From positions 1-64,000 of the forward strand of contig CACHCY010000001.1 of the NCBI GenBank assembly GCA_902578495.1: a stretch of DNA of 64,000 nt, in the 5' to 3' direction. Below are positions 1-59,286 of the stretch, in pieces; within the stretch, counting starts at the first letter, position 1; each line of letters starts with the position of its first letter. The translations under genes and the position numbers were made by a program. The notes under the pieces are model-generated. The model saw nothing but the letters and a program-made list of their open reading frames with translations. It was not told where the DNA came from and did no database searches. The stretch is from an uncultured SAR86 cluster bacterium. Lineage in GTDB: Bacteria; Pseudomonadota; Gammaproteobacteria; Magnimaribacterales; AG-339-G14.

Positions 1-705
1 GCTCTCAGTGCAAGACTCAAGGAGATCTTAGATCAGGCATGTGCGGATGATTCTATTAAAGTAATCGTTCTTACCGGAGAAGGGAGAGGATTTACTGCAG
101 GTGCTGACATGGACGGTCTTGCTAGTACCTCTGAAGGAAAATCAGACTCCTCTGAACAATCTAAAGATGATGAGCCTTGGAAAGGATTCAGTTATGTGCG
201 TAATTTAGATAAACCGGTTATAGCAGCTATTAATGGTCCTGCTGCCGGGGTTGGTTTTATTCTATCTCTTTACTGTGATATCAGATTTGCATCCGAGACT
301 GCTGTTTTTTCAACAGCTTTCTCTAAAAGAGGTTTGATTGCTGAGTGGGGCGTTGGCTGGATGCTTAGTAGGATAATTGGTTTATCTCATGCTAATGATC
401 TTCTTTTTTCTGCAAGAAAATTTGACGGAAAAGAAGCTGAAAGAATTGGTCTCGTAAATAAAGCTATTCCGGCTGATTCATTTATGGATGAAGTCATTGC
501 TTACGCAGAAGATCTAGCAAAGAATGTTTCGCCAAGATCTGTGAAAATTATGAAAGAGCAAATGTATGCGTCTCTGGAAGAGTCATTTGATGATCATATT
601 CAAAAAGCATTTAAAAAGATGGTTGAAAGCTTCGGGTCTGATGATTTCAAAGAAGGAGTCAAACATTTCATAGAAAAAAGACCAGCGAATTTCACAGGTA
701 AGTAA
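1..705 (+). CDS. Enoyl-CoA hydratase/isomerase family protein (5' partial)
   Basis: The reading frame is open from base 1, so the gene begins upstream and only its last 234 codons are here. The crotonase fold is clear: a GADM stretch just before residue 40 of the visible part, then KPVIAAINGPAAGVGF, the oxyanion-hole segment, followed by CDIRFAS. The usual second-site glutamate seems kept in LIAEWG; the first acidic position is not obvious. Such enzymes hydrate trans-2-enoyl-CoA in beta-oxidation or act on related acyl-CoAs in the cytoplasm. It lies 3 nt before an acyl-CoA synthetase and a short-chain dehydrogenase, which suggests one catabolic operon. The exact substrate cannot be read from sequence. 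Confidence 0.9.
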   Translation, partial: ALSARLKEILDQACADDSIKVIVLTGEGRGFTAGADMDGLASTSEGKSDSSEQSKDDEPWKGFSYVRNLDKPVIAAINGPAAGVGFILSLYCDIRFASETAVFSTAFSKRGLIAEWGVGWMLSRIIGLSHANDLLFSARKFDGKEAERIGLVNKAIPADSFMDEVIAYAEDLAKNVSPRSVKIMKEQMYASLEESFDDHIQKAFKKMVESFGSDDFKEGVKHFIEKRPANFTGK

Positions 706-40794: not shown

Positions 40795-40828
40795 AAAGAG
40801 GCTGCTGTTGCAGCCTCTTTTATTTTTG
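40795..40828 (+). terminator. Rho-independent terminator after hsp20
   Basis: AAAGAGGCTGC and GCAGCCTCTTT (11 bp) around TGTT, followed by TATTTTT. It overlaps the end of the convergent rsmJ stop codon, so the two genes end back to back. Confidence 0.9.
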
Positions 40829-41527
40829 ATACACGTCAAAGGCAACAGACTTTCCTATAACAGAAAAAGTAATAAATTTTTGAAGGGTTGATTTTTGTTT
40901 TTTGTGTCGTTTATAGATTAATCTCTCTGAACAGCAGTCTAGAAGTTGTTCAATGCAGTCTTGAGGATTTTTATCAGATGCTATTGATCTCAGAAGTTCC
41001 ATGGGTTGTTTAGCAGTTGCTTTTTTTTTGAGATCAAAGACCGGATCAAAGTAAATGACGTCGGGCCTCATTTTTTCTGCTAATTCAAGCGAGTCTCCAT
41101 ACTGGAGATTGATGTTTTTTAATTCAGAGTCTCCTAATTTTGCTAAATCTAGTTCGTTTTTCATGACTTCATACAGCCATGAGATCTTCTCTACTGCAGT
41201 AACTTGGAAACCCATATTAGCAATGTGAACAGAATCATTTAATAAACCGGCCGTAGAGTCAAATACTTGTAAATTTTTATCAAGGGAAAGGAAACATTTT
41301 GAAAAATTGGATTTAAAAATTTTATCAACATTCATAGGCTTGAGATCTAAAGAAAAAAAATGTGATTTTTTTCTTCTGAGATCTTTGAACAGAAATTGTT
41401 CATTTCTTTCAGTAACTAAATATTTCAATTTCGATGAACCTATATCCGATACTGCAGGTATCCGATGCCTAGCAGCAAATTCTCTAAGTTTTAAATTATC
41501 GTCAAGCTTATCAATTACTAAATCCAC
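40820..41527 (-). CDS. rsmJ: 16S rRNA (guanine-1516-N2)-methyltransferase
   Basis: 235 residues. SAM-binding DSTAGLLNDSVHIANMGFQVTAVEK (about residue 90) and the catalytic-type DVIYFDPVFDLKKKA follow the RsmJ/YhiQ pattern. It methylates a guanine in 16S rRNA. Last gene in the leftward housekeeping run; its start overlaps uppP by 10 nt. Confidence 0.88.
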   Translation of the reverse strand: MDLVIDKLDDNLKLREFAARHRIPAVSDIGSSKLKYLVTERNEQFLFKDLRRKKSHFFSLDLKPMNVDKIFKSNFSKCFLSLDKNLQVFDSTAGLLNDSVHIANMGFQVTAVEKISWLYEVMKNELDLAKLGDSELKNINLQYGDSLELAEKMRPDVIYFDPVFDLKKKATAKQPMELLRSIASDKNPQDCIEQLLDCCSERLIYKRHKKQKSTLQKFITFSVIGKSVAFDVYQK

Positions 41528-42297
41528 AAGATTCCAACTAATGTGATCGATAGGATAATTCTGTACAAAACAAAGGGAGTGAATCCTATTTTTTGTATTA
41601 AAGATAAAAATAAATTAATGCATAAAAGCGATATAGCAAAGGAAATTAATCCGCCAAGAATTAAAATAAACCAGTCAATAGTCTCTTCTGATTGAATTGC
41701 TTCTATTGAGCTTCCCAATAAGACTGCCGACAATGTAGGTATTGATAAAAGAAAAGAGAATCTAGCTGCATCTTCCCTTCTATAACCTAATATTAAAGCT
41801 CCGATCATAGTGATGGCCGATCTTGAGACCCCTGGCATGAGAGCAAATATTTGAAACATGCCAACGATAAAAGAATCTTTGAGATCAATGGATTCGATTG
41901 AATTCGTTTTTCTACCGTATTTATCTGCAATGTATAAAAAAATTGCAAATAAAAAAGTGGTGAGAATTAGAAATTCCAAAGAACGAAAATTCTGTTCAAT
42001 AAAATCCCCTCCTAGGAAACCAACTAATGCAACAGGTAAGGTTGCTACTATTAAACACAATAATAGATTTTGCTTGTAAGGGGAAAATACTCTTTGAATT
42101 AATACGCTGACTTCCTTTCTAAAGGCGTAAATTATCGCAAAAAGGCTACCGCCATGAACATATATGTCAAAGAGTATTCCTTGATCCTGCCAGCCAAACA
42201 ACTTTGAAATTAGGATCAAATGAGCTGAACTACTTATAGGAAGAAATTCGGTTATTCCTTGTACTATTGATAAAACGACTATCTGAATTAAATCCAT
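41518..42297 (-). CDS. uppP: Undecaprenyl-diphosphate phosphatase
   Basis: 259 residues with about eight membrane segments. QGITEFLPISSSAHLILI near the start and PGVSRSAITMIGALILGYRREDAARFSFLLSIPT mid-protein are the two BacA/UppP catalytic blocks. It regenerates the C55 lipid carrier for peptidoglycan and other glycans. 6 nt after tsaB. Confidence 0.95.
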   Translation of the reverse strand: MDLIQIVVLSIVQGITEFLPISSSAHLILISKLFGWQDQGILFDIYVHGGSLFAIIYAFRKEVSVLIQRVFSPYKQNLLLCLIVATLPVALVGFLGGDFIEQNFRSLEFLILTTFLFAIFLYIADKYGRKTNSIESIDLKDSFIVGMFQIFALMPGVSRSAITMIGALILGYRREDAARFSFLLSIPTLSAVLLGSSIEAIQSEETIDWFILILGGLISFAISLLCINLFLSLIQKIGFTPFVLYRIILSITLVGILWI

Positions 42298-42303
42298 GTG
42301 GAA

Positions 42304-42960
42304 CTATTTCCAGTGATCTTTATTGGATAGGTAATTCGGCACTATAAAGCTATCGCCTTGAGGAGGCGCTAAATCACTGATGGTAATAAACTCGAACATA
42401 CTTTTTGCCTCAGGCTGTATAAAAGAAAAATTTTTGCTTTTAAGCATATTCATCATATCTGTATTTTCTGACGAAGTTATCAAATGATAATCTTTATGCT
42501 CCTTTAAGAAAGTTGCAAGATCCTCATTTTGCAAGATAAATTCTTCAGTTTTACTATCTAAAAGACTTTCTTTGTCATCAAATTTTGAGGCAGCAAATTC
42601 TCCCATACCTAAGCTAATTAAACTGACTACTTTTCCTTTTAATTCATTTTGATAAGCAGTTGAAGCTAGAACTTTGAGGCTAGAAATTCCGAAACATTTA
42701 ATTCTGTGAATTAAATTAAAGGATTGTGCAACCCCACATCCGACTCTCAAGCCCGTAAAAGATCCTGGACCGTAACTTATTAAAATTTTATCTAATTGCT
42801 CCAAGGATAATTGAGATTGGTCCAAAAGCTCATCGATCAATGCAAGAATGACTTTTCCATGCTGACTTTTATTCGTATCTTCTTTAAAAAATATTTGCCC
42901 ATCTTTGAAAACTGCAATTGAGCAATATATTGCAGACGTTTCGATTGCAAGTACGTTCAC
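42304..42960 (-). CDS. tsaB: tRNA t6A modification protein TsaB
   Basis: 218 residues of the ASKHA fold. [20 protein letters not shown] and [21 protein letters not shown] are typical of TsaB, with the catalytic metal residues of TsaD absent. It scaffolds TsaD and TsaE in the N6-threonylcarbamoyl-A37 pathway. Its start overlaps adk by 4 nt. Confidence 0.93.
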
Positions 42961-43607
42961 TTATTTCTGAAGAAATTTAGAATAAATTGACTGATTGATT
43001 CAACGCTCCCGGAACCATCAACTGTAAGATAATCAAGATCATTATTTGTTTGCTTGGCTTTATAGAAACTTATTAATGGCTCAGTCTGATTTCTATAGAC
43101 AATCAATCTCTCTTCAACCACCTCTCTTTTATCATCATCTCTTTGAATTAACTCTTCCCCAGTTAAGTCATCAAAACCCTCTTTTTTTGGGGGATTAAAT
43201 TTAACGTGGTAGTTTCTGCCAGACGATATGTGAACTCTTCTTCCGGACATTCTTTCAATAATATTTTCATCATCTAGCTGAATTTCAATAATTAAATCAA
43301 TTCCTATATTGGCATCATCTAATGCTTGGGCCTGAGGAATTGTTCTTGGAAAACCATCAAATAAGGCTCCATTTGAGCAGTCAGGTTTTTTTAATCTTTC
43401 CACTACCAATCCTACAATAATGTCATCAGAAACAAGTGCTCCTTTATCCATGACCTTTTTAGCTTCAATTCCTAAAGGCGACCCCTCCTCAATGGCTTCT
43501 CTAAGCATATTTCCGGTGGAGATATGAGGTATATTGAGAGCCTGTATTATGTTTTCAGCTTGAGTTCCTTTTCCTGCTCCTGGTGGCCCAAGTAAAATAA
43601 TTCTCAT
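42957..43607 (-). CDS. adk: Adenylate kinase
   Basis: 216 residues. P-loop [28 protein letters not shown] (AMP/ATP site) and the long lid with [23 protein letters not shown]. It balances ADP with AMP and ATP. The lid lacks zinc cysteines. It shares its first base with the acpS stop. Confidence 0.97.
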
Positions 43608-44020
43608 TAGATATCCTCTTTTATCGCGTGAGCAACGGCAACGGCAAGAGAATCGGTATCGCTTAGACTTATGGATATTTCAGTTAATTTTATTTTTTTA
43701 GCGATATCTTTCGCTTTCCCTTTAAGTTCCACTTCTGGGCCGCCGTAACGTCTGTGAATAATAATATCTCTAGGACGAACTCCGTTCGTGAAACCATACC
43801 CCAAAACTTTTGAAACAGCTTCCTTTCCAGCAAAATTTTTAGCAAGGTACCTTGCACCGTTGTAACCTTTTCTTTTTGAAAAAATATCAATTTCACTTTC
43901 ATCATAAAGTCTTGTTAGCATTCGCATTCCAAATTTTTCATAAGATTTTTCTAGTCTTTTAATCTCGATGAGATCTATACCACTTCTCAGCTTTTTATTA
44001 ATTGAAATATTTTCTTGCAT
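43607..44020 (-). CDS. acpS: Holo-[acyl-carrier-protein] synthase
   Basis: 137 residues. [18 protein letters not shown] holds the first metal aspartate, and [19 protein letters not shown] the conserved F-A-x-K-E. It attaches 4'-phosphopantetheine to ACP. Its beginning overlaps recO by 23 nt. PdxJ, often between recO and acpS, is absent. Confidence 0.95.
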
Positions 44021-44690
44021 TCAACTCTTTACCCAGGATCGCTTCCAATGATTCTCTAAAAATAGATTTTATTACTTTCTTAGTCATATTATTTGAAAAC
44101 TTTCCAGACATAAAATCTAATAAATGCTGCCCTTTAAAGGATGATTCTATTTCTCCTTTATCCAAGGAATATATTCCTCTTAATGGACTGAATAGATAAT
44201 ACTGATCGGGTTCAATTGAGCTTCCGACATCATTTTTAGTCAAATCAAAACCATAACCTAAATCTGTAATTAATCTATATTCAAATTTTCTTAAAGATAG
44301 TTCTAAGAACTCATCTTTATTATCTAATGTCATAAGGCTCATTAATTCATCATAGTCTTTAAATACGACAGGAATATCATGTTCTTTTTCAAAAATTTTT
44401 AAAATCAGTTCATTGAGGTAAATAAGAATTTTAAGATTTTTGGGAGCTATTGGAATTTGCTTATTTATTTCGCATTCGAAGATAGTTTTCAGAGCATTTT
44501 TATCAGAGAAACTGATATAAAGTTCTGAGCCTGGCGATAAGATATTTACAAATTTACTCCCTTTTCGTTTAGCACCTTTTATCAAGGCATTGAGGATTCC
44601 AAAATCCTTTGTCAAAAAACTTACTATAACGCTTGTCTCTGAATAATCTCTTGCATGCAGAAGAAAGGCTAGACTATTTCTAGTTTTCAT
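43998..44690 (-). CDS. recO: DNA repair protein RecO
   Basis: 230 residues. N-terminal OB domain (FLLHARDYSETSVIVSFLTKDFG) and a later helical part (YELFR-like PDQYYLFSPLRGIYS). It helps RecR load RecA at single-strand gaps. The zinc cysteines found in some homologues are not evident. Overlaps era by 11 nt. Confidence 0.88.
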   Translation of the reverse strand: MKTRNSLAFLLHARDYSETSVIVSFLTKDFGILNALIKGAKRKGSKFVNILSPGSELYISFSDKNALKTIFECEINKQIPIAPKNLKILIYLNELILKIFEKEHDIPVVFKDYDELMSLMTLDNKDEFLELSLRKFEYRLITDLGYGFDLTKNDVGSSIEPDQYYLFSPLRGIYSLDKGEIESSFKGQHLLDFMSGKFSNNMTKKVIKSIFRESLEAILGKELNARKYFN

Positions 44691-45582
44691 ATTTTTTCAA
44701 GTCGTAGCCAAGTTGAGAGATCCAGTTAACATCATCTGTCCATTTTTTTTTGACTTTCACCCATAATTCTAAAAATACTTTTTTATCGTACTCAAATTGA
44801 ATTTCTTTTCTTGCTGCCGTTCCAATAGATTTCATCATATCCCCTTTTTTACCCAGTAATATAGGTTTATGTGACTTACTATCCACGTAAATGGTTGCAG
44901 AAATACTGAGTAATTTCTTATCTTCCTTTAAGGCATCTATGATGATGCTGATGCTGTAAGGTAGTTCATCGCCCAACCTATTTATGGCCTTTTCTCTGAT
45001 AATCTCTGAGATAAAAAATTCCTTAGACAAGTCTGTTACAAAATCTTCCTCATAATGCGGTTGGCCATGAGGTAGATAATTATTAATTACTTCATACAGC
45101 TCTTTTGGAGCATTTTTATTTTTCAGGGCTGATATAGGGATGATCTCTTCAAAATCGAACTTTGCTTTTAATTTTTCTATTGTTGGTAATAAATCTTCTT
45201 TATTCTTTATCCTGTCTATCTTATTTATCACCAGAATTACGGGGATTTTAGATCCGTTTAATTGCTTGATAATTCTTTCTTCTTCCTCGCCCCATCTATC
45301 TCGATCGACAATGAACAAAATAAGGTCAACATTCTTTAAAGCATGCATTGCCACCTGATTCATATATTTATTTAGAGCTTTTTTATGACCAGTATGAACA
45401 CCGGGAGTATCAAGAAATATTGCCTGCATATCTTCATGATTCCATGCTCCAAGAATTCTATTTCTTGTGGTTTGAGGCTTCCTTGATGTAATCGCTAACT
45501 TTCTTTCCAAAATTTTATTGAGCAAGGTAGATTTACCAACATTAGTTTTTCCAACTATTGATATAAATCCAAACTTACTCAT
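44680..45582 (-). CDS. era: GTPase Era
   Basis: 300 residues. The G1 loop GKTNVGKSTLLNKILE, switch motif DTPGVHTG, NKID and SALK are the GTPase motifs; the C-terminal KH domain has the GKKGDMMKSIG loop. It binds the 3' end of 16S rRNA in 30S maturation. It overlaps rnc by 8 nt. Confidence 0.97.
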   Translation of the reverse strand: MSKFGFISIVGKTNVGKSTLLNKILERKLAITSRKPQTTRNRILGAWNHEDMQAIFLDTPGVHTGHKKALNKYMNQVAMHALKNVDLILFIVDRDRWGEEEERIIKQLNGSKIPVILVINKIDRIKNKEDLLPTIEKLKAKFDFEEIIPISALKNKNAPKELYEVINNYLPHGQPHYEEDFVTDLSKEFFISEIIREKAINRLGDELPYSISIIIDALKEDKKLLSISATIYVDSKSHKPILLGKKGDMMKSIGTAARKEIQFEYDKKVFLELWVKVKKKWTDDVNWISQLGYDLKKYEN

Positions 45583-46240
45583 TTTTCATCAAGTGTTTCA
45601 AATAATTTTCAGCAGCATCTTTCTCTGCCTCTTTGATACTCGAGCCTTTACCTAAAAAGTGTTTCTTTTGTTCAGATACTATGGAGCTTTCGAATAAACC
45701 TTCTTTCGGTGAAGTATTCAGATATTTTGGTAAAGGTAATTGCCTTTTTTGCAGGAGCTCTTGGAGCTCTGTTTTTGAGTCTTTTTCCAGAGATAAGTCC
45801 ATCAAATCGCTGTATTTTTCAAAAACCTGAGACAACCAATTAGAAGTATTCTCAAAGTCTGAATCGAAGTAGATGGCGGCAACTAATGACTCAAAAGTAT
45901 TCCCTAAAATTTCTGTTTGATGGATTTTTTTTCTACTAATTGAATTTCCCAGTATTACAAATTCCTCCAATTTAAAATTTTTAGCAAGCCTTCCTAGATT
46001 TTTTCTGCTAACAATTTTTGATCTTAGAGAACTTAGCTCACCCTCACTTAAATCTCTATTTTTATTCATTAGCCAGATTGATGTACACAGATTAATAATT
46101 GAGTCGCCTAAAAATTCATAAATTTCATTATTTTCTTGAGAAAAACTCCTATGAGTTAGTGAAAGTTTTAATAATTCTCTTTTAGAAAATTTATATGAGA
46201 GTAGTTCCTCTAAAGAATCTAAATTATTTGATAAGTCCAT
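45575..46240 (-). CDS. rnc: Ribonuclease III
   Basis: 221 residues. Catalytic block YEFLGDSIINL near residue 40 (the acidic E and D) and a C-terminal dsRNA-binding domain ending in KEAEKDAAENYLKHL. It cuts dsRNA in rRNA precursors. The usual HRSF/Y start is intact. Its 5' end overlaps lepB by 17 nt. Confidence 0.96.
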   Translation of the reverse strand: MDLSNNLDSLEELLSYKFSKRELLKLSLTHRSFSQENNEIYEFLGDSIINLCTSIWLMNKNRDLSEGELSSLRSKIVSRKNLGRLAKNFKLEEFVILGNSISRKKIHQTEILGNTFESLVAAIYFDSDFENTSNWLSQVFEKYSDLMDLSLEKDSKTELQELLQKRQLPLPKYLNTSPKEGLFESSIVSEQKKHFLGKGSSIKEAEKDAAENYLKHLMKNE

Positions 46241-47204
46241 TTCTTGATAATGACGGCAAACACGAAAAACACTCCCAATGCATCCAGATTAGTGAGGCTT
46301 TACCGGTAATTTCTTCTTGTGGAACTAGTCCCCATCTTCTGCTATCAAGGCTGTTATCTCTATTATCTCCAGCAAGAAAATAATATCCTTCGGGAACATT
46401 CCAGGAACCGTTCTCAGGTTTTCTAGAAAGTTTTCGAACAATATATTCCTTGCCTTCGTTTATTTCCTCGATTAATTCCTCTTGATCTCTCTTATCAAGA
46501 ATTTTTTGATCAAGTTTAATGCCGTTAATGATGAATTCTTTATTTCTGTAGATAACTTCATCGCCCGGTTCAGCTATTACCCTCTTAATATATTTAACAC
46601 CCTGTGATGTGCAATTTTCAGACAAGATACTCCAGTAATACATTCTCTGATTTTTCTCTCTATCTGATGAATAAGATCCTTTAGGATTAGCAATATCAAA
46701 ATCAGAGCTACATTTAGTGTGTTCTGGAACAAAAATTACCACATCACCTCTTTTTGGTTTTCCCGTAGGAATGAAAGTTTTTTGATTTACTGGGTTTCTT
46801 AATCCATATGTAAATTTCTCTACTAACAAAAAATCTCCTATTTTTAATCCTGGAAACATAGAAGATGAAGGAATTTGGAAAGGTTCATATAAAAAAGAAC
46901 GAAAGATCGTTATTGCTAATATGATGATAAAAAAACTTCTACTCTCTTTGCTTGCTTTAGGAATGGCTAAATATTTGGCAAGCAGCCAAATCAACAGGGA
47001 GCCAAAAGTCAAAAAAACAAGAACTACGCCAAAGTCTAGATTCAGTCTAAACCAAGCATAAAGAGCAAAAAATGGAAAAACAAAGGTTATTCTGTTAATT
47101 AATTTTGAGTGTCGTCCTTCGTATTTAGCCTCGGAAACTAACCAGCCAACGATACCTAATGAAGAAATCAGCAAAGAAAAATAAAGAAGAAAATAATAAT
47201 TCAT
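46224..47204 (-). CDS. lepB: Signal peptidase I
   Basis: 326 residues with two N-terminal membrane helices, then the catalytic serine in IPSSSMFPGLKIGDFLLVEKF and lysine in YIKRVIAEPGDEV, and the late GDNRDNSLDSRRWG box. It removes signal peptides. It overlaps lepA by 1 nt and rnc by 17 nt. Confidence 0.97.
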   Translation of the reverse strand: MNYYFLLYFSLLISSLGIVGWLVSEAKYEGRHSKLINRITFVFPFFALYAWFRLNLDFGVVLVFLTFGSLLIWLLAKYLAIPKASKESRSFFIIILAITIFRSFLYEPFQIPSSSMFPGLKIGDFLLVEKFTYGLRNPVNQKTFIPTGKPKRGDVVIFVPEHTKCSSDFDIANPKGSYSSDREKNQRMYYWSILSENCTSQGVKYIKRVIAEPGDEVIYRNKEFIINGIKLDQKILDKRDQEELIEEINEGKEYIVRKLSRKPENGSWNVPEGYYFLAGDNRDNSLDSRRWGLVPQEEITGKASLIWMHWECFSCLPSLSRNGLIK

Positions 47205-48985
47205 TATTTATTTACTTTCAGGACTGAAAGGAAAGCTTCTTGGGGAACTTCAACCTTTCCAATATGTCTCATTTTTTTCTTCCCAGCTTTTTGTTTCTCT
47301 AAAAGTTTTTTCTTTCTAGTAACGTCTCCTCCATAGAGTTTAGCAGTAACATCTTTTCTAAAAGCTTTGACTGTTTCTCTTGCAAGAATCTTTCCTCCTA
47401 TTGCAGCTTGGATAGCGACATCATACATCTGACGAGGAATAACTTCTCTTAACGATTTAACGAGTTGCCTTCCTTTAAAATCAGATTGGGATTTGTGAAC
47501 CATAGAGCTTAGGGCATCAACTTTTTCTCCATTTAATAAGATATCCATTTTCACCATTTGGCTTTCTTGAAAACGATCAAAATCATAATCAAGAGAAGCG
47601 TATCCTTTGCTAGTTGATTTTAGCCGATCAAAAAAATCTAAAATTATCTCATTCATAGGTAAGTCATAAACTAATTCAATTTGCCCACCGACATACCTTA
47701 ATGATTTCTGTACGCCTCTTTTTTCAACGCATAATTCGATTACGTTTCCTACATAGGTTTCTGGAGTAAGCACGGTAGCTTTCGCAATAGGTTCACGAAT
47801 CTTCTCGATAGAAGAAGGATCAGGAAATTTGCTAGGGTTTTCAACTTCCTCAATCTCTCCTCCCTTGTTTTCAATTTCATAAACAACCGTAGGAGCTGTA
47901 GCTAGAAGCTCTATGCCATACTCTCTTTTAATTCTCTCAATCACAATTTCCATATGAAGAGTGCCTAAAAACCCACATCTAAAACCCGACCCTAAAGCTT
48001 GACTCTGCTCTGGGTGAAAAGATAAAGCCGCATCATTAATGGCTAATTTTTCTAAAGATTCTCTAAATGATTCAAATTCTCCTGAGTCTAAAGGGTATAA
48101 AGCAGCAAAAACCTGAGGATTAATCTTTTTAAATCCAGGAAGTATTTTTGTATCTTTAGGTAAACATATAGTGTCGCCTACTGGAGCTCCTCTTACCTCT
48201 CTTACCCCCGCACAAATAAATCCAACATCTCCTTTGGAGAGTGATTTTCTATCTTCAGGTTTTGGAGTGAATACACCAATTTTTTCAACAGTATGAATTT
48301 GATTATTTGAACTAATTTTTACTTTTTGACCTAGGTCTATTGATCCAGAAAAAATTCTTATCAAAGATACTACCCCAAGGTATTGATCAAACCATGAGTC
48401 AATTATGAGAGCTTGTAGAGAATCATCTTTATCATCTGGGGGCGGAACTTGAACTACCAATTGTTCAAGAAGATTATCAATACCCTGTCCATTCTTTGCA
48501 CTGATTTCAGGGCAATCAGAAGCATCTATTCCTATAATTTCTTCAATTTCCTTCCTAACCTTATCTGGATCAGCTTGAGGAAGATCGATTTTATTCAATA
48601 CTGGAAAAATATTAACGCCCTGCTCTATCGCTGTATAACAAGTTGAAACTGTCTGAGCTTCAACGCCTTGTGAAGCATCAACAAGGAGAATTGCTCCTTC
48701 GCATGCTGCCAGAGATCTCGAAACTTCGTAAGAAAAGTCTACATGTCCCGGAGTATCAATTAGGTTTAATTGATAATTAGTCCCTTCTTTAGTTGAGTAT
48801 TCAAGAAAAACAGATTGAGCCTTGATTGTAATGCCCCTTTCTCTTTCTAGCTCGAGAGAATCTAAGACTTGCTCTTTCATCTCTCTAGAAGATAAGCCTC
48901 CACAGTATTCTATGAGCCTATCAGCTAGAGTGGATTTGCCGTGATCGATGTGAGCTATGATCGAAAAATTTCTTATGTTGTCCAT
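47204..48985 (-). CDS. lepA: Elongation factor 4 (LepA)
   Basis: 593 residues. GTPase domain begins with [32 protein letters not shown], and NKIDLPQAD; the C-terminal LepA domain ([30 protein letters not shown]) distinguishes it from EF-G. Ribosome-associated translation factor. 37 nt after mucD and 1-nt overlap with lepB. Confidence 0.97.
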
Positions 48986-49022
48986 TATTTAGTGCTTTTT
49001 AAAAAAGCTGGACAATTATCCC

Positions 49023-50441
49023 TTATTTTTTAATTTTTATCGTAACAAATGCGCCATTTTTATTTCTTACAAACCTTAAAGGGATAACATTTTCATTATT
49101 CAAATCTTCAAGAGCATTTTCATATTCTGTTTTGGACGAAACATTAGTCATGCCGATTCTTGTGATCACATCTCCTCTTCTTAGCCCTGCATCAAAGGCA
49201 GGCCCAGAAACTACCCTGCTCACCACAACGCCTTCTTTAACGCCAAAATTTTCTTTTATCTTTTCAACATCCGTATTTCTTCTCTCAGCTATGTCTTCAA
49301 AATCTTCAACCATCATGCCAAGTCTGTTATTTTTTGGTGCTGAAGCAATTGGGTTACTATCCTCTTCAGGTTCTTCTAGTTCTCCTACAGTCACCCTGAT
49401 AGATTTTTTTCTACCGTCTCTGTAAACAGTAGCCTTGACTTCCTCTCCAGGGGAGATTCTACCGACAACCATTGGCAGATCACCTGAATAAATAATTTCA
49501 TTCCCATCAAAATCTACAATCACGTCACCATCTTTAAGGCCTGAAGATTCAGCAGGGCTATCGGTTAAAACGCTTCCGATTAGTGCTCCTCTAGGTACAT
49601 CCAATCCAAAAGAATCCGCTAGATCCTTTGTTACTTCTTGAACGCTTACTCCTAACCAGCCTCTTTTAACAAAGCCATCTTCTCTTAATTGATCAATAAT
49701 TTCTTGGGCATAGTTGATAGGAATTGTGAAAGAAATCCCCATGTATCCCCCTCTGTTTGAGTAAATCATTGCATTGATACCGATTACTTCACCATCTAAA
49801 TTGAATAGAGGACCTCCTGAATTTCCTGGATTAATCGCAACATCAGATTGTAAAAAAGGAATATAAGAAGTTCCTTGACCAGGAACACTTCTAGCTTTGG
49901 CGCTAATAATTCCTGCTGTGACCGAAAAATTTAGTCTATAAGGCGAACCAATGGCTAGTACCCAGTCACCTACATCCACATCATCAGAGTCTCCCAGATC
50001 TAAAAAAGGTAAGGATTCTTTTGCAGATATCTTCAATAGAGCTACATCAGATTTTTTATCACTTCCAATAAGTTCAGCTATGAATTCTCGCCTATCGTTT
50101 AGGCTGACAAAAATCTGTGAAGCATCTTCTACGACATGATGATTCGTTATTATGTAACCGTCTTTTGAAATAATAAAACCAGAACCGCCTGATCTGACCT
50201 CTCTTTCTTGCTCTCTTCTGGGTTCATCTTCAAATGGAAAAGGGAAATTAAAAAAATCATCAAATGGATTTTGTCTTCTATTAAAGGGACTCATCCTATT
50301 CTGGGTGCTGATTGTTTTAATGACACTTACATTTACTACAGCAGGAGCTGCTTCATCAACTAAGTCAGAAAAATCTGGATAATCCGCTGTTACAGAAATG
50401 CTAAGCAGAAGAAAAATCAGTGATATTGAAAATTTTTTCAT
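49023..50441 (-). CDS. mucD: Do-family periplasmic serine protease (MucD/DegQ-like)
   Basis: 472 residues with signal peptide MKKFSISLIFLLLSISVTA. Catalytic triad H102 (in TNHHVV), D132 (SDVALL) and S208 (NPGNSGGP); then two PDZ domains (from about residue 270 and 390). It degrades or chaperones misfolded envelope proteins. It follows rseA by 1 nt, next to rpoE, the known sigma-E stress set. Among names DegP, DegQ and MucD, location favours MucD. Confidence 0.95.
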   Translation of the reverse strand: MKKFSISLIFLLLSISVTADYPDFSDLVDEAAPAVVNVSVIKTISTQNRMSPFNRRQNPFDDFFNFPFPFEDEPRREQEREVRSGGSGFIISKDGYIITNHHVVEDASQIFVSLNDRREFIAELIGSDKKSDVALLKISAKESLPFLDLGDSDDVDVGDWVLAIGSPYRLNFSVTAGIISAKARSVPGQGTSYIPFLQSDVAINPGNSGGPLFNLDGEVIGINAMIYSNRGGYMGISFTIPINYAQEIIDQLREDGFVKRGWLGVSVQEVTKDLADSFGLDVPRGALIGSVLTDSPAESSGLKDGDVIVDFDGNEIIYSGDLPMVVGRISPGEEVKATVYRDGRKKSIRVTVGELEEPEEDSNPIASAPKNNRLGMMVEDFEDIAERRNTDVEKIKENFGVKEGVVVSRVVSGPAFDAGLRRGDVITRIGMTNVSSKTEYENALEDLNNENVIPLRFVRNKNGAFVTIKIKK

Positions 50442-50442
50442 T

Positions 50443-51144
50443 TTATTTCCTTAAATTTAAAAAAATCCTGTTCGACAATTCAACCAAGCCTTGGTTATTG
50501 ATTTCATCGCTTGATAAGTTTATGACTACTGGTTTATCGTTTGCCAAAGAATGGACCGTTATACCCGAAGAAGATAACTTAATTCTATCTTCTAATGAAA
50601 GGTCTCTGAATAAAACTCTAAGCTTAAAACTCCTTTTTGAATCGTTCTCTACATAATTTGCGATTATGTCCCCTTCTTCCATAAATTCTATTTTCTTGAG
50701 GCTGCCTTTAAGATTGTTACCAATCTCTTGTAAATAGCTTTCATTTGAAGATACCGGGATATTTCCAATTGATAGCGCAGGTATAACAGAAGTTGACTGA
50801 AACGACTCTTCTTCTTGAGCTATAAAAGGTTGAAAAACAAGGCCCAATGATAATAAAACGCCAAATGCAAAGCCGTAATATTTTAATTGTTTTGATTTTT
50901 CATCTTTTGAGAATTTTATTTGCTTGATGTCAGAACCATCTAACTCCTCCATGACTGTTGAAGCGATGTTTCTTGGAGAGAAATCAATTTCTGCAGTCAG
51001 TAAGGATTTGGTCTTATTCATTCTTATCCAAAGATCTTTAATCTCAGGATTTTTATTTATTTCTTCAACAAGCCGTCTAGTCTCAAATTCAGACGTTTCT
51101 CCGTCAAGGAGAGCAGACAGTCTATGTTCTATGCTATCTTCCAT
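50443..51144 (-). CDS. rseA: Anti-sigma-E factor (RseA-like)
   Basis: 233 residues. N-terminal helical ASD domain (LSALLDGETSEFETRRLVEEINKN), a single membrane segment (YYGFAFGVLLSLGLVFQPF, about 93-111) and a periplasmic region. It would hold RpoE at the membrane until proteolysis by DegS/RseP under outer-membrane stress. It overlaps rpoE by 11 nt. RseB/RseC are absent at this place. Confidence 0.88.
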   Translation of the reverse strand: MEDSIEHRLSALLDGETSEFETRRLVEEINKNPEIKDLWIRMNKTKSLLTAEIDFSPRNIASTVMEELDGSDIKQIKFSKDEKSKQLKYYGFAFGVLLSLGLVFQPFIAQEEESFQSTSVIPALSIGNIPVSSNESYLQEIGNNLKGSLKKIEFMEEGDIIANYVENDSKRSFKLRVLFRDLSLEDRIKLSSSGITVHSLANDKPVVINLSSDEINNQGLVELSNRIFLNLRK

Positions 51145-51715
51145 TATTGCCTTTAGCCTCGTTATTTATAGAAATTTGTATTTCATCTAATAATTGCCTT
51201 CCTCTGAATATTCTTGACCTTACTGTACCAACTGGACAATTGCATATTTTTGCAATCTCCTCGTAGTTAAGGCCATTGAATTCTCTAAGAGTTATGGCAG
51301 ATTTAATCTCTTCTGGCATGTCATTAAGACATTGAAATAGCCTATCTCTTAAAGTATTGGCTTCTAAAATTGATTCCGGGCTTGGTGAATCAATGCCTAT
51401 ATGAGTAAGGATATTTTCATCTATTTCTGACTCCATAATTTCGTTTTTATTGTATTTACTAGAAAGATGGTTCTTTGCTGTATTTACTGCAATTCGGTAA
51501 AGCCAGGTAAAAAAAGCACTATCTTCCTTGAAGCCTCCGATATTTATATAAGCCTTAATAAAAGCTTCCTGTGCTATATCTTCAGAAAAAGTTGGATTTT
51601 TGAAAAGTTTGTTTAATGAACCCATTAACTTATCTTGATGTTTAATGACAAGGGCCTCAAAAGCATTTTTATTGCCTTCCTTGCTGAGTTTGATTAATGT
51701 TTTTTCAGAATTCAC
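51134..51715 (-). CDS. rpoE: RNA polymerase sigma-E factor
   Basis: 193 residues from GTG 51715. Region 2 (FSEDIAQEAFIKAYINIGGFKEDSAFFTWLYRIAVNTAKNHL) and region 4 (SAITLREFNGLNYEEIAKICNCPVGTVRSRIFRGR) are near-canonical sigma-E. The first residues align with E. coli RpoE, supporting the GTG. It drives the envelope-stress regulon. It precedes rseA and mucD. A candidate self-promoter stands directly before the start. Confidence 0.96.
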   Translation of the reverse strand: MNSEKTLIKLSKEGNKNAFEALVIKHQDKLMGSLNKLFKNPTFSEDIAQEAFIKAYINIGGFKEDSAFFTWLYRIAVNTAKNHLSSKYNKNEIMESEIDENILTHIGIDSPSPESILEANTLRDRLFQCLNDMPEEIKSAITLREFNGLNYEEIAKICNCPVGTVRSRIFRGRQLLDEIQISINNEAKGNNGR

Positions 51716-52004: not shown

Positions 52005-52685
52005 GTGCTCATATCAAAATATCACAAAATTATAGTAGTTGAAGGAAAAGACTCAATTGATTTCTTGCAGGGACAGATTTCAACAGACGTATTAAAACAA
52101 GAAATTGAACAAATCGATCGTTCAGCCATTTGCAACTTAAAAGGGAGAGTTATAGCTAGTTTTTTATGTAAAAAAATCAGTAATGACCAATTTCATTTAA
52201 TCACTCATCAATCTATTGCAAAAAAACTAGTGGATACATTAAAAAAGTATGCTGTTTTCTCTAAAGTATCAATTGAGGAGGGAGATGAAAATGTGAGTGA
52301 TTATATCGATGATAAAGCTTGGAAAAGCTCAATAATCGATAACCTTGATCCAGAAATATACTTAGAGAACTCTGAAAAATATACTCCTCAAGAATTAGGA
52401 TACGATAAAAACGGAAGAATTGACTTTAAAAAAGGATGTTTTACTGGACAAGAAATTATTGCAAGGATGCATTACAGATCGCCTGGCATTTTTTCCATTG
52501 CTAGAGTAGAAATTGATGATACAAACAAGTCATTTAATGAAGTATTTACTGTAAATGATAAAAAGGTTGGAAATATTATTGAATATGTAAATGGCAAATA
52601 CTTAGTGAGCGGAAAAACAAAGAATTTTGATTCTTTAAAAGACAATACAGAAAATACAGGCATTAAGTCTGTAGAATTAAACTAA
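52005..52685 (+). CDS. ygfZ: YgfZ/GcvT-like folate-binding protein for Fe-S cluster maintenance
   Basis: 226 residues from GTG. The conserved DFLQGQISTDV at the start and KGCFTGQEIIARMHYR (the K-G-C-x-T-G-Q-E motif) are YgfZ marks. It uses tetrahydrofolate to help Fe-S enzymes. A nearby ATG at 52001 is in another frame with a quick stop. Its end overlaps the convergent ung by 9 nt. Confidence 0.93.
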   Translation: MLISKYHKIIVVEGKDSIDFLQGQISTDVLKQEIEQIDRSAICNLKGRVIASFLCKKISNDQFHLITHQSIAKKLVDTLKKYAVFSKVSIEEGDENVSDYIDDKAWKSSIIDNLDPEIYLENSEKYTPQELGYDKNGRIDFKKGCFTGQEIIARMHYRSPGIFSIARVEIDDTNKSFNEVFTVNDKKVGNIIEYVNGKYLVSGKTKNFDSLKDNTENTGIKSVELN

Positions 52686-53354
52686 TTTCCAATTAATTGG
52701 CCCCTTCCCCTTATCAATGAGGTAATCATTTGTTCTGCTAAACGGCTTTGATCCAAAGAAACCTTTATCGGCAGAAAATGGTGAGGGATGAGCTGACTCA
52801 ATAACTAAGTTTTCTTGAGTATTTATTAAAGATTTTTTAAGTTGTGCATTTTTACCCCAAAGAATGTAAACCATATCCTTTTTATTACCCAAAACTTTGA
52901 TTACTTTATCAGTAAAAAATTTCCATCCGATATTTTGATGTGAGTTCGGATTATTTGACTCTACTGTAAGAGAGCTGTTGAGGAGCAGCACTCCCTCTAA
53001 AGCCCAAGAAGTCAAATTTCCTGAAGAAGGTATCTTAATCTTTAAATCAGAATTCAATTCCTTGAATATATTTTTGAGCGACGGCGGTATAGAGATATTA
53101 TCTTTTACAGAAAAGCTGAGACCATGTGCTTGACCAGCTCCATGATAGGGATCCTGACCCAGAATTACTACTTTAGTGTCTTCGTAAGAAGTAAAATTAA
53201 AGCAATTGAATATTTCTTTACCAGGCGGATAGATAGTTTTTCTTTGACTAATTTGATTTCTTAAAAATTCTTTGATTTCAATCATATATGTCTTACTAAA
53301 TTCATCTTCGAGATGATTGAGCCATGAATTAGTAAGGTCAATTTTTAAGGACAT
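52677..53354 (-). CDS. ung: Uracil-DNA glycosylase (family 1)
   Basis: 225 residues. VVILGQDPYHGAGQAHGLSFSV includes the catalytic aspartate, and ESAHPSPFSADKGFFGSKPFS the HPSP loop that holds DNA. It removes uracil from DNA. The transcript starts at the edge of the 336-nt AT-rich gap that has DnaA boxes. Confidence 0.97.
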   Translation of the reverse strand: MSLKIDLTNSWLNHLEDEFSKTYMIEIKEFLRNQISQRKTIYPPGKEIFNCFNFTSYEDTKVVILGQDPYHGAGQAHGLSFSVKDNISIPPSLKNIFKELNSDLKIKIPSSGNLTSWALEGVLLLNSSLTVESNNPNSHQNIGWKFFTDKVIKVLGNKKDMVYILWGKNAQLKKSLINTQENLVIESAHPSPFSADKGFFGSKPFSRTNDYLIDKGKGPINWKLV

Positions 53355-53690
53355 TTAACACTAGAATATCAAAAAAATTTATCCACAGAAACTGTGGATA
53401 AGTCTTTGGATAAATAAGCCAGGATTAAACGCATAGACTATGAATTAAAGGTTTGAGTCAATTTGATCAAATTTTGATCAATATAAATAATATCAATAAA
53501 ATCAATAACTTACATAAATTAGACTATTGAGTAAGAAAAATTTTCAAATAATCTTAAAAAATGCACTTTTAGGTATTTACAAAGTTTTCAATGTGTGTAA
53601 GTCACATGAAAAAACGTCAAAATAGTTTTAAAAAATGATTTTTTTAGGTGATAATCTTATAAATATTCAAGTACAAAATTAACTAACAAT
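53355..53690. other. AT-rich gap with DnaA boxes (possible replication origin)
   Basis: 336 nt without a gene. At its left, TTATCCACA (53379-53387) and its inverse TGTGGATAA (53393-53401) form a 10-bp perfect inverted repeat, both matching the DnaA consensus; a third, one-mismatch box TTTGGATAA is at 53405-53413. Then A/T DNA with two TTGATCAA copies 11 bp apart (53463, 53474) and two ATCAATAA copies 9 bp apart (53492, 53501). Boxes beside an AT-rich tract are an origin-like layout; a DnaA-controlled promoter is the alternative. Confidence 0.45.
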
Positions 53691-54782
53691 ATGGAAACAC
53701 TTTTTAATCCTATAAAAATTAATAACTTAGATATTCCGAATAGATTTGCCATGGCGCCAATGACAAGGAATAAGTCACCCAATGGAATTCCTGGTCAAAA
53801 TGTTGCTGACTATTACGAAAGAAGAGCTAAGGGTGGTGTTGGCCTAATTATCACCGAAGGAGTTGAGGTATCCCACCCATCTTCTAGTGGATATCCTGAT
53901 GTGCCGGGTTTGAAACCTGAAACTCATGAAGGCTGGAGGAACGTAATATCTCAAGTTCACAAATATGATTCTAAAATTTTCTGTCAACTCTGGCATGTAG
54001 GAGCAATAAGAAAACCTGGCTTGCCGCCAGAACCAGATGTTCCGGGATTCACTCCCTCCGGCTTAGTTAGAAAAGATAAAAAGGTTGCATATGAAATGAC
54101 AGCTGATGATGTAGAAAATATGATCGAAATTTATGTAAGAGATATCGAAATTATCAAGGATTTAGGTTTTGATGGAGTTGAATTACATGGTGCTCATGGA
54201 TATTTGATAGATCAATTTTTCTGGGAAGATATGAATCAAAGAAAAGATGGTTTTGGGGGAAGTATCCAATTAAGGTCATCTTTTGCATCAGAAATAATAA
54301 AAAGAGCTAGAGCTAAGGTAGGTAATGATTTCTGCATAGCTATAAGGTTTTCTCAATGGAAACAGCAAGACTACGAAGCAAAGTTAGCAAAAAATCAGGA
54401 TGATTTAGAGACTCTTCTTAGACCGCTTGTTGATGCAGGAGTTGATGTAATTCATGCTAGCAACAGAAGGTTTTGGGAACCAGAGTTTGAAGGATCTAAT
54501 CTTAATTTGGCAGGTTGGACAAAAAAAATAACCGGTTTACCTACCATTACTGTTGGCAGTGTGGGTCTGGAGTCAGATTTCATAGGTTTTTATCAAGGTG
54601 AAGACGAAGTTAAATCAGCTCCAATTGATGATTTAGTTAAACGAATGGATGACAAGGAATTTGATATGGTTGCTGTGGGCAGAGCTTTACTCTCGGACCC
54701 TGAATGGGTTAATAAAGTTAAAGAAGGTCGTTACGATGAAGTTATTCCCTTTTCTAAGAAGCACGCAGAGAATTATTATTAA
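53691..54782 (+). CDS. NADH:flavin oxidoreductase / Old Yellow Enzyme family
   Basis: 363 residues. FMN barrel motifs: NRFAMAPMTRNK near residue 17, FCQLWHVGAIRKP, and FDGVELHGAHGYLIDQFFW with the tell-tale H-G-A-H-G. It reduces activated C=C bonds with NAD(P)H. C-terminal AVGRALLSDPEWVNKVKEG is standard. It sits right of the DnaA-box gap and is transcribed away from it. Substrate unknown. Confidence 0.93.
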   Translation: METLFNPIKINNLDIPNRFAMAPMTRNKSPNGIPGQNVADYYERRAKGGVGLIITEGVEVSHPSSSGYPDVPGLKPETHEGWRNVISQVHKYDSKIFCQLWHVGAIRKPGLPPEPDVPGFTPSGLVRKDKKVAYEMTADDVENMIEIYVRDIEIIKDLGFDGVELHGAHGYLIDQFFWEDMNQRKDGFGGSIQLRSSFASEIIKRARAKVGNDFCIAIRFSQWKQQDYEAKLAKNQDDLETLLRPLVDAGVDVIHASNRRFWEPEFEGSNLNLAGWTKKITGLPTITVGSVGLESDFIGFYQGEDEVKSAPIDDLVKRMDDKEFDMVAVGRALLSDPEWVNKVKEGRYDEVIPFSKKHAENYY

Positions 54783-59098: not shown

Positions 59099-59286
59099 CT
59101 TTTGAGGTTTATACAATTTAGCATTATCCACAAGAAATTAAGTGTTTTTTAAAGGTTTTTCTATTGATTTTTTGAGAAAAACACTTTATCTTGTGTTTAT
59201 AGGATCTTATAACCACAACATCTTGTGTTTCATCAAGGATTATAAGCAGCCAAAAAGACAAGAAAACCAATTATTGGGGTGTTTCA
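59099..59286. promoter_or_regulatory. glpK-nrdA divergent control region: DnaA box and two NrdR boxes
   Basis: TTATCCACA at 59124-59132 is a perfect DnaA box. ACACTTTATCTTGTGT (59181-59196) and CCACAACATCTTGTGT (59213-59228) match the NrdR box ACACWATATMTTGTGT in form; they lie 32 bp apart centre to centre, three helical turns, the known NrdR arrangement. Between the second box and the GTG of nrdA are 58 nt. Confidence 0.7.

Follow-up and report, generated by a model that had tools for sequence, protein, structure and literature searches.

A three-box DnaA array upstream of ung in SAR86 genomes is probably a DARS element

The closest described counterparts of the locus reported here are the E. 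coli elements DARS1 and DARS2, which have the same structure: box I points against boxes II and III, and the boxes are spaced identically in the two (PMC5742627). When ADP-DnaA occupies boxes I and II head to head, its ADP is released, and the apo-DnaA then binds ATP (PMC5742627, PMC8682772). In E. coli MG1655 the DARS1 core reads TTATCCACT-5-TGTGGATAA-3-TGTGTATTA and the DARS2 core TTATTCACC-5-TGTGGATAG-3-TGTGAAGAA (numerals are spacer lengths in bp). DARS2 requires both IHF and Fis, arranged in the order core-IHF-Fis (PMC4245941); minimal datA has an IHF site between boxes 2 and 3 (PMC5742627). Conservation of DARS2 has been reported for E. coli and seven nearby species, of which the most distant ones named are Vibrio cholerae and Shewanella denitrificans (PMC8682772), and wider reports may exist. 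Our literature search found no paper linking SAR86 with DnaA boxes.

We identified an array with the orientation and spacing of both E. coli cores in the window (the whole stretch of 64,000 nucleotides of SAR86 DNA that was analysed), where the core, at 53379-53413, lies in the gap between ung and an OYE-type gene (Table 1). The preliminary description of this DNA had pointed out two perfect DnaA boxes in inverted orientation and a third copy with one mismatch, and all three were recovered; box I is opposite in orientation to boxes II and III, all within 35 bp and with 9-5-9-3-9 spacing. Judged by this anatomy, the element is very probably the DARS of SAR86, and from the same anatomy we infer its likely function, the conversion of ADP-DnaA to ATP-DnaA. 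A site for DnaA titration or activation had been the alternative named in the preliminary description, and the geometry of the E. coli DARS cores speaks for it.

Table 1. Features at and around the DnaA-box array (window coordinates; offsets are counted from the end of the core)
Feature	Position	Strand	Remarks
ung, uracil-DNA glycosylase	52677-53354	-	Pfam UDG; left neighbour, constant
DnaA box I, TTATCCACA, perfect	53379-53387	+	98-100% conserved per base (60 SAR86 loci)
5-bp spacer between boxes I and II, GAAAC	53388-53392		Length as in E. coli DARS1/DARS2; sequence varies more than the boxes
DnaA box II, TGTGGATAA on the top strand, TTATCCACA on the - strand, perfect	53393-53401	-	Inverted relative to box I; invariant in 60 loci
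3-bp spacer between boxes II and III, GTC	53402-53404		Length as in E. coli DARS1/DARS2; sequence variable
DnaA box III, TTTGGATAA on the top strand, TTATCCAAA on the - strand, one mismatch	53405-53413	-	Oriented like box II
Predicted Fis-consensus site, GATCAAATTTTGATC (GnnYAnnnnnTRnnC)	53465-53479		+51
Predicted IHF-consensus site, AATCAATAACTTA (WATCAAnnnnTTR)	53500-53512	+	+86
Possible weak fourth DnaA box, TTACACACA on the - strand	53592-53600	-	+178
OYE-type FMN oxidoreductase	53691-54782	+	Pfam Oxidored_FMN; right neighbour, variable

The box cluster is not a chance occurrence, since both the inverted perfect pair and the three-box array are so rare in the genome: the pair TTATCCACA-N(1-20)-TGTGGATAA occurs a single time in 1.175 Mb (control, 0), and three-box arrays, with spacings of any length to a limit of 40 bp, number one in contig C1, none in contig C2, and one in a closed relative (G006). 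DnaA boxes with at most one mismatch show no clear enrichment over the window as a whole (24 vs 18.1 expected). For the possible fourth box, TGTGTGTAA is found at +174..178 from the core end in 30/30 loci of the window's own family and is absent in other families. An Rfam search of 53300-53750 with E up to 1 matched no RNA element, and a small protein is not apparent at the site, where the ORFs are of 21-41 aa only. Separately, a stretch of ~100 bp inside 53540-53660, after the IHF-like site and before the OYE gene begins, is nearly unchanged among five genus relatives, more so than its surroundings; it contains no ORF above 41 aa and has no Rfam match.

The same box arrangement is present in related genomes throughout the order. 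With up to three mismatches allowed, the array was detected in 166 of the 203 genomes of the order, in 37 of the 40 near-complete ones and in 21 of the 22 genera (reversed-pattern control, 0), a count that by itself is no proof of the spacing, which the pattern fixes. Loci found by the palindrome alone, where box III lies outside the pattern, again have box III after 3 bp, so that this spacing was not built in by the search; in addition, relatives reached through ung alone carry the same array. Across 60 SAR86 loci hardly any change is seen in the boxes, with more variation in the spacers and flanks (flank mean 0.50-0.56). Three close boxes, two of them perfect, together with an IHF-consensus site, might also make up a site that simply titrates DnaA, or one that inactivates it as datA does; E. 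coli DARS1, DARS2, and datA all titrate DnaA as well (PMC12371093). Titration, however, needs no fixed orientation or spacing of three boxes, yet both are kept across four families; and unlike minimal datA with its internal IHF site, the SAR86 locus has its IHF-consensus site outside the array, with all three boxes on one side of it. We regard titration or datA-like inactivation as quite improbable.

Beyond the order, a count with the core geometry fixed at 5- and 3-bp spacers and up to three mismatches allowed gave the same array in 261 of 370 gammaproteobacterial genomes (control, 0).

The AT-rich tract with phased TTGATCAA and ATCAATAA repeats, reported in the preliminary description, is indeed present at 53463-53512, and these repeats include perfect consensus sequences for both Fis and IHF, predicted sites that keep fixed distances from the core. 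In 59 of the 60 SAR86 loci a match to the Fis consensus falls at +39..51 from the core, compared with 2.9% in shuffles; the strict IHF consensus near +85 was found in 37 (1.1% in shuffles), and the relaxed form WATCARnnnnTTR in 51, at about the same place. Two observations here count against a DARS: most loci of family f4 have a weak IHF-type site or none; and the predicted order in SAR86, core-Fis-IHF, all within about 100 bp, is reversed relative to E. coli DARS2. Covariation across the dyad of the Fis-like site is little above independence, and we therefore left it out as evidence.

The left neighbour is constant: each of the 60 SAR86 loci examined has ung next to the core, with the core a short way upstream of the start of that gene. 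The nearest relatives of the window's own ung are from SAR86 genomes, at 92-99% identity, which places the window in a gammaproteobacterium of the SAR86 cluster. In contrast, the right-hand gene, typed from translations and against the genes of the window, varies among OYE-like, SDR-like, and serA-like, the last two in many other genera; because this neighbour varies, the element is not part of the right-hand gene. The fixed linkage to ung is also compatible with a cis-regulatory role and to that extent counts against a DARS; here DnaA bound upstream of the ung start would couple uracil repair to the replication cycle, and DnaA does double as a transcription regulator (PMC11317965). We consider such a control site improbable as a full explanation: the DARS geometry is more than a simple repressor site requires, conservation extends to the Fis- and IHF-consensus sites on the flank, and 30 other gammaproteobacterial loci have the same geometry with no ung (and also no uvrB or mutH) within their flanks of ~1.5 kb. 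Control of ung may be an added role of the element rather than an alternative to a DARS. The ung leader could also contain, in the palindrome, an intrinsic terminator or attenuator of transcription: the - strand has a 10-bp stem, a 3-base loop, and a T-run. Within family f1, however, the T-run was seen only in the window's genus, and g2-g4 have an A-run on the same strand with the boxes kept; box III, moreover, is left unexplained. We rejected this reading, whose probability is negligible, because other genera do not keep the T-run.

The leading proposal of the preliminary description, a candidate chromosome origin of a non-canonical kind away from dnaA, fails the GC-skew check that this description had itself called for. 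In its favor, contigs C1 and C2 yielded no stronger DnaA-box cluster, the site lies next to AT-rich DNA, and within 10 kb on each side the GC skew goes from -0.114 on the left to +0.020 on the right, which explains the initial impression of an origin; this change is not sustained at larger scale, the 50-kb flanks being both negative (-0.028 left, -0.070 right). The absence of dnaA, dnaN, and mnmG beside the site had been seen correctly: dnaA and dnaN are on another contig (C2, near 91-93 kb), and there the 50-kb skew does change sign, from -0.024 to +0.027. No denser box cluster accompanies dnaA, since the region upstream of it has only two boxes with at most one mismatch, fewer than the site. 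This oriC region, between rpmH and dnaA at about 93.5 kb of C2, resembles the element in its two inverted DnaA boxes and AT-rich DNA; it differs in that the boxes are 19 bp apart, there is no third box, and the skew changes sign. With only two boxes in the true oriC region, a search for box clusters alone misplaces the origin; counts of DnaA boxes should be read with this warning in mind, the box-richest place not being oriC.

Chromosome maps of two relatives place the element away from the origin. In G006, a single contig of 1,194,046 bp, the cumulative skew has its minimum at 1,193,974, beside dnaA (also after trend removal), and its maximum at 619 kb, and a dif-like site lies at 596,419, half a chromosome from dnaA; the record begins at dnaA, and the detrended minimum and the dif position are independent of this numbering. 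The element is located between 310,142 and 310,176 (310,154 in the comparison with the skew minimum and dif), i.e. at 310 of 1194 kb, mid-replichore. The sequence of G190, a more distant relative, has 1,070,029 bp and is numbered from dnaA; its copy of the element, at 381 kb, is close to where a coarsely sampled cumulative skew (one sample being all N) peaks. In both genomes the element is intergenic and between oriC and terminus, as are both E. coli DARS. The skew and the positions of dnaA and dif, on which we rule out an origin at this site, leave that reading only a very slight probability. In the window's own genome the element has no exact map position, as the assembly is in 27 contigs and 88% complete; the dif-like site of this genome is on contig C3 at 89284-89308, and a dif search within the window found none. 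Compared with G006, the own genome (window 10000-64000 and C1 100000-350000, matching 269-343 kb inverted and then 758-979 kb) seems rearranged, perhaps by an inversion between replichores around the terminus or through an assembly join.

Gene orientation around the site agrees in part with the divergence described for an origin. On the left, the genes from 40820 to 51715 are all leftward as described, the sole exception being 52005-52685 (+); on the right, the OYE and nrdA-like genes (both +) fit, but the overall picture is mixed (SDR-like -, serA-like -, argF-like +, glpK-like -). The nrdA-like gene is preceded, at ~155 bp, by another perfect DnaA box (59124-59132), and DnaA boxes are likewise present in the E. 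coli nrdAB promoter (PMC8682772).

We also looked for genes of the DnaA cycle. The window's own genome contains fis; G006 contains dnaA, fis, two IHF-like genes, one HU-like gene, and one Hda-like gene, some of the fis, IHF-, HU-, and Hda-like calls being below the NCBIfam curated cut-offs. A tblastn search of G006 with E. coli SeqA, Dam, MutH, and DiaA gave no match at E up to 0.01, and the lack of a DiaA match at this threshold counts against a DARS.

For the element as a DARS we propose the following course, in which the binding of DnaA, Fis, and IHF, the nucleotide exchange, and the effect on timing are all modeled on E. coli biochemistry. Two DnaA molecules would sit head to head on boxes I and II, and a third on box III beside box II; assembly of ADP-DnaA on the core would loosen the ADP, and the apo-DnaA would leave the element and take up ATP. 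The level of ATP-DnaA would thus rise before initiation at the real oriC beside dnaA, and the action of Hda would be undone. Fis and IHF on the AT-rich stretch (at ~+50 and ~+85) would probably activate it, as they do DARS2 in E. coli.

SAR86 is a streamlined ocean lineage, and the exact core, present once per genome in nearly all near-complete SAR86 genomes, suggests that recharging DnaA is worth keeping even at 1.2 Mb, with SeqA and Dam undetected. Tentatively, and as a possibility rather than the expected outcome, SAR86 may have a pared-down DnaA cycle with a single compact DARS, in which control of the DARS2 type, rearranged to put Fis ahead of IHF, is joined to a DARS core; its fixed place at ung might give the repair of uracil and the recharging of the initiator a common control region, in genomes with no SeqA, Dam, or DiaA homologue detected. 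As part of the same tentative picture, DARS may be a class-wide control element of Gammaproteobacteria, beyond enterics and their close relatives. The class-wide count opens the question of when DARS arose and whether it is tied to Hda and Fis.

Set against the individual E. coli elements, the SAR86 locus combines features of both. Like DARS1, in the bioD-uvrB intergenic region, it has three boxes, with I opposed to II/III and 5- and 3-bp spacers, and it is intergenic, between oriC and terminus, and upstream of a DNA-repair gene; it differs in the neighbour (uvrB there, ung in SAR86), in box III (TGTGTATTA in DARS1, TTTGGATAA in SAR86), and in that DARS1 acts in vitro without additional factors, whereas SAR86 keeps Fis- and IHF-consensus sites. 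All three elements, DARS1 (uvrB), DARS2 (near mutH), and the SAR86 element (ung), are beside a DNA-repair gene, which could be chance. With DARS2 it shares the core geometry and, by prediction, sites for IHF and Fis that follow the core beyond box III; DARS2, however, has core-IHF-Fis in a regulatory region of ~400 bp, and SAR86 has core-Fis-IHF, as predicted sites, in ~100 bp. E. coli has two DARS, while SAR86 genomes show one. In its predicted layout, the SAR86 element is thus distinguished from the E. coli DARS by its single copy, by Fis before IHF, and by its fixed linkage to ung.
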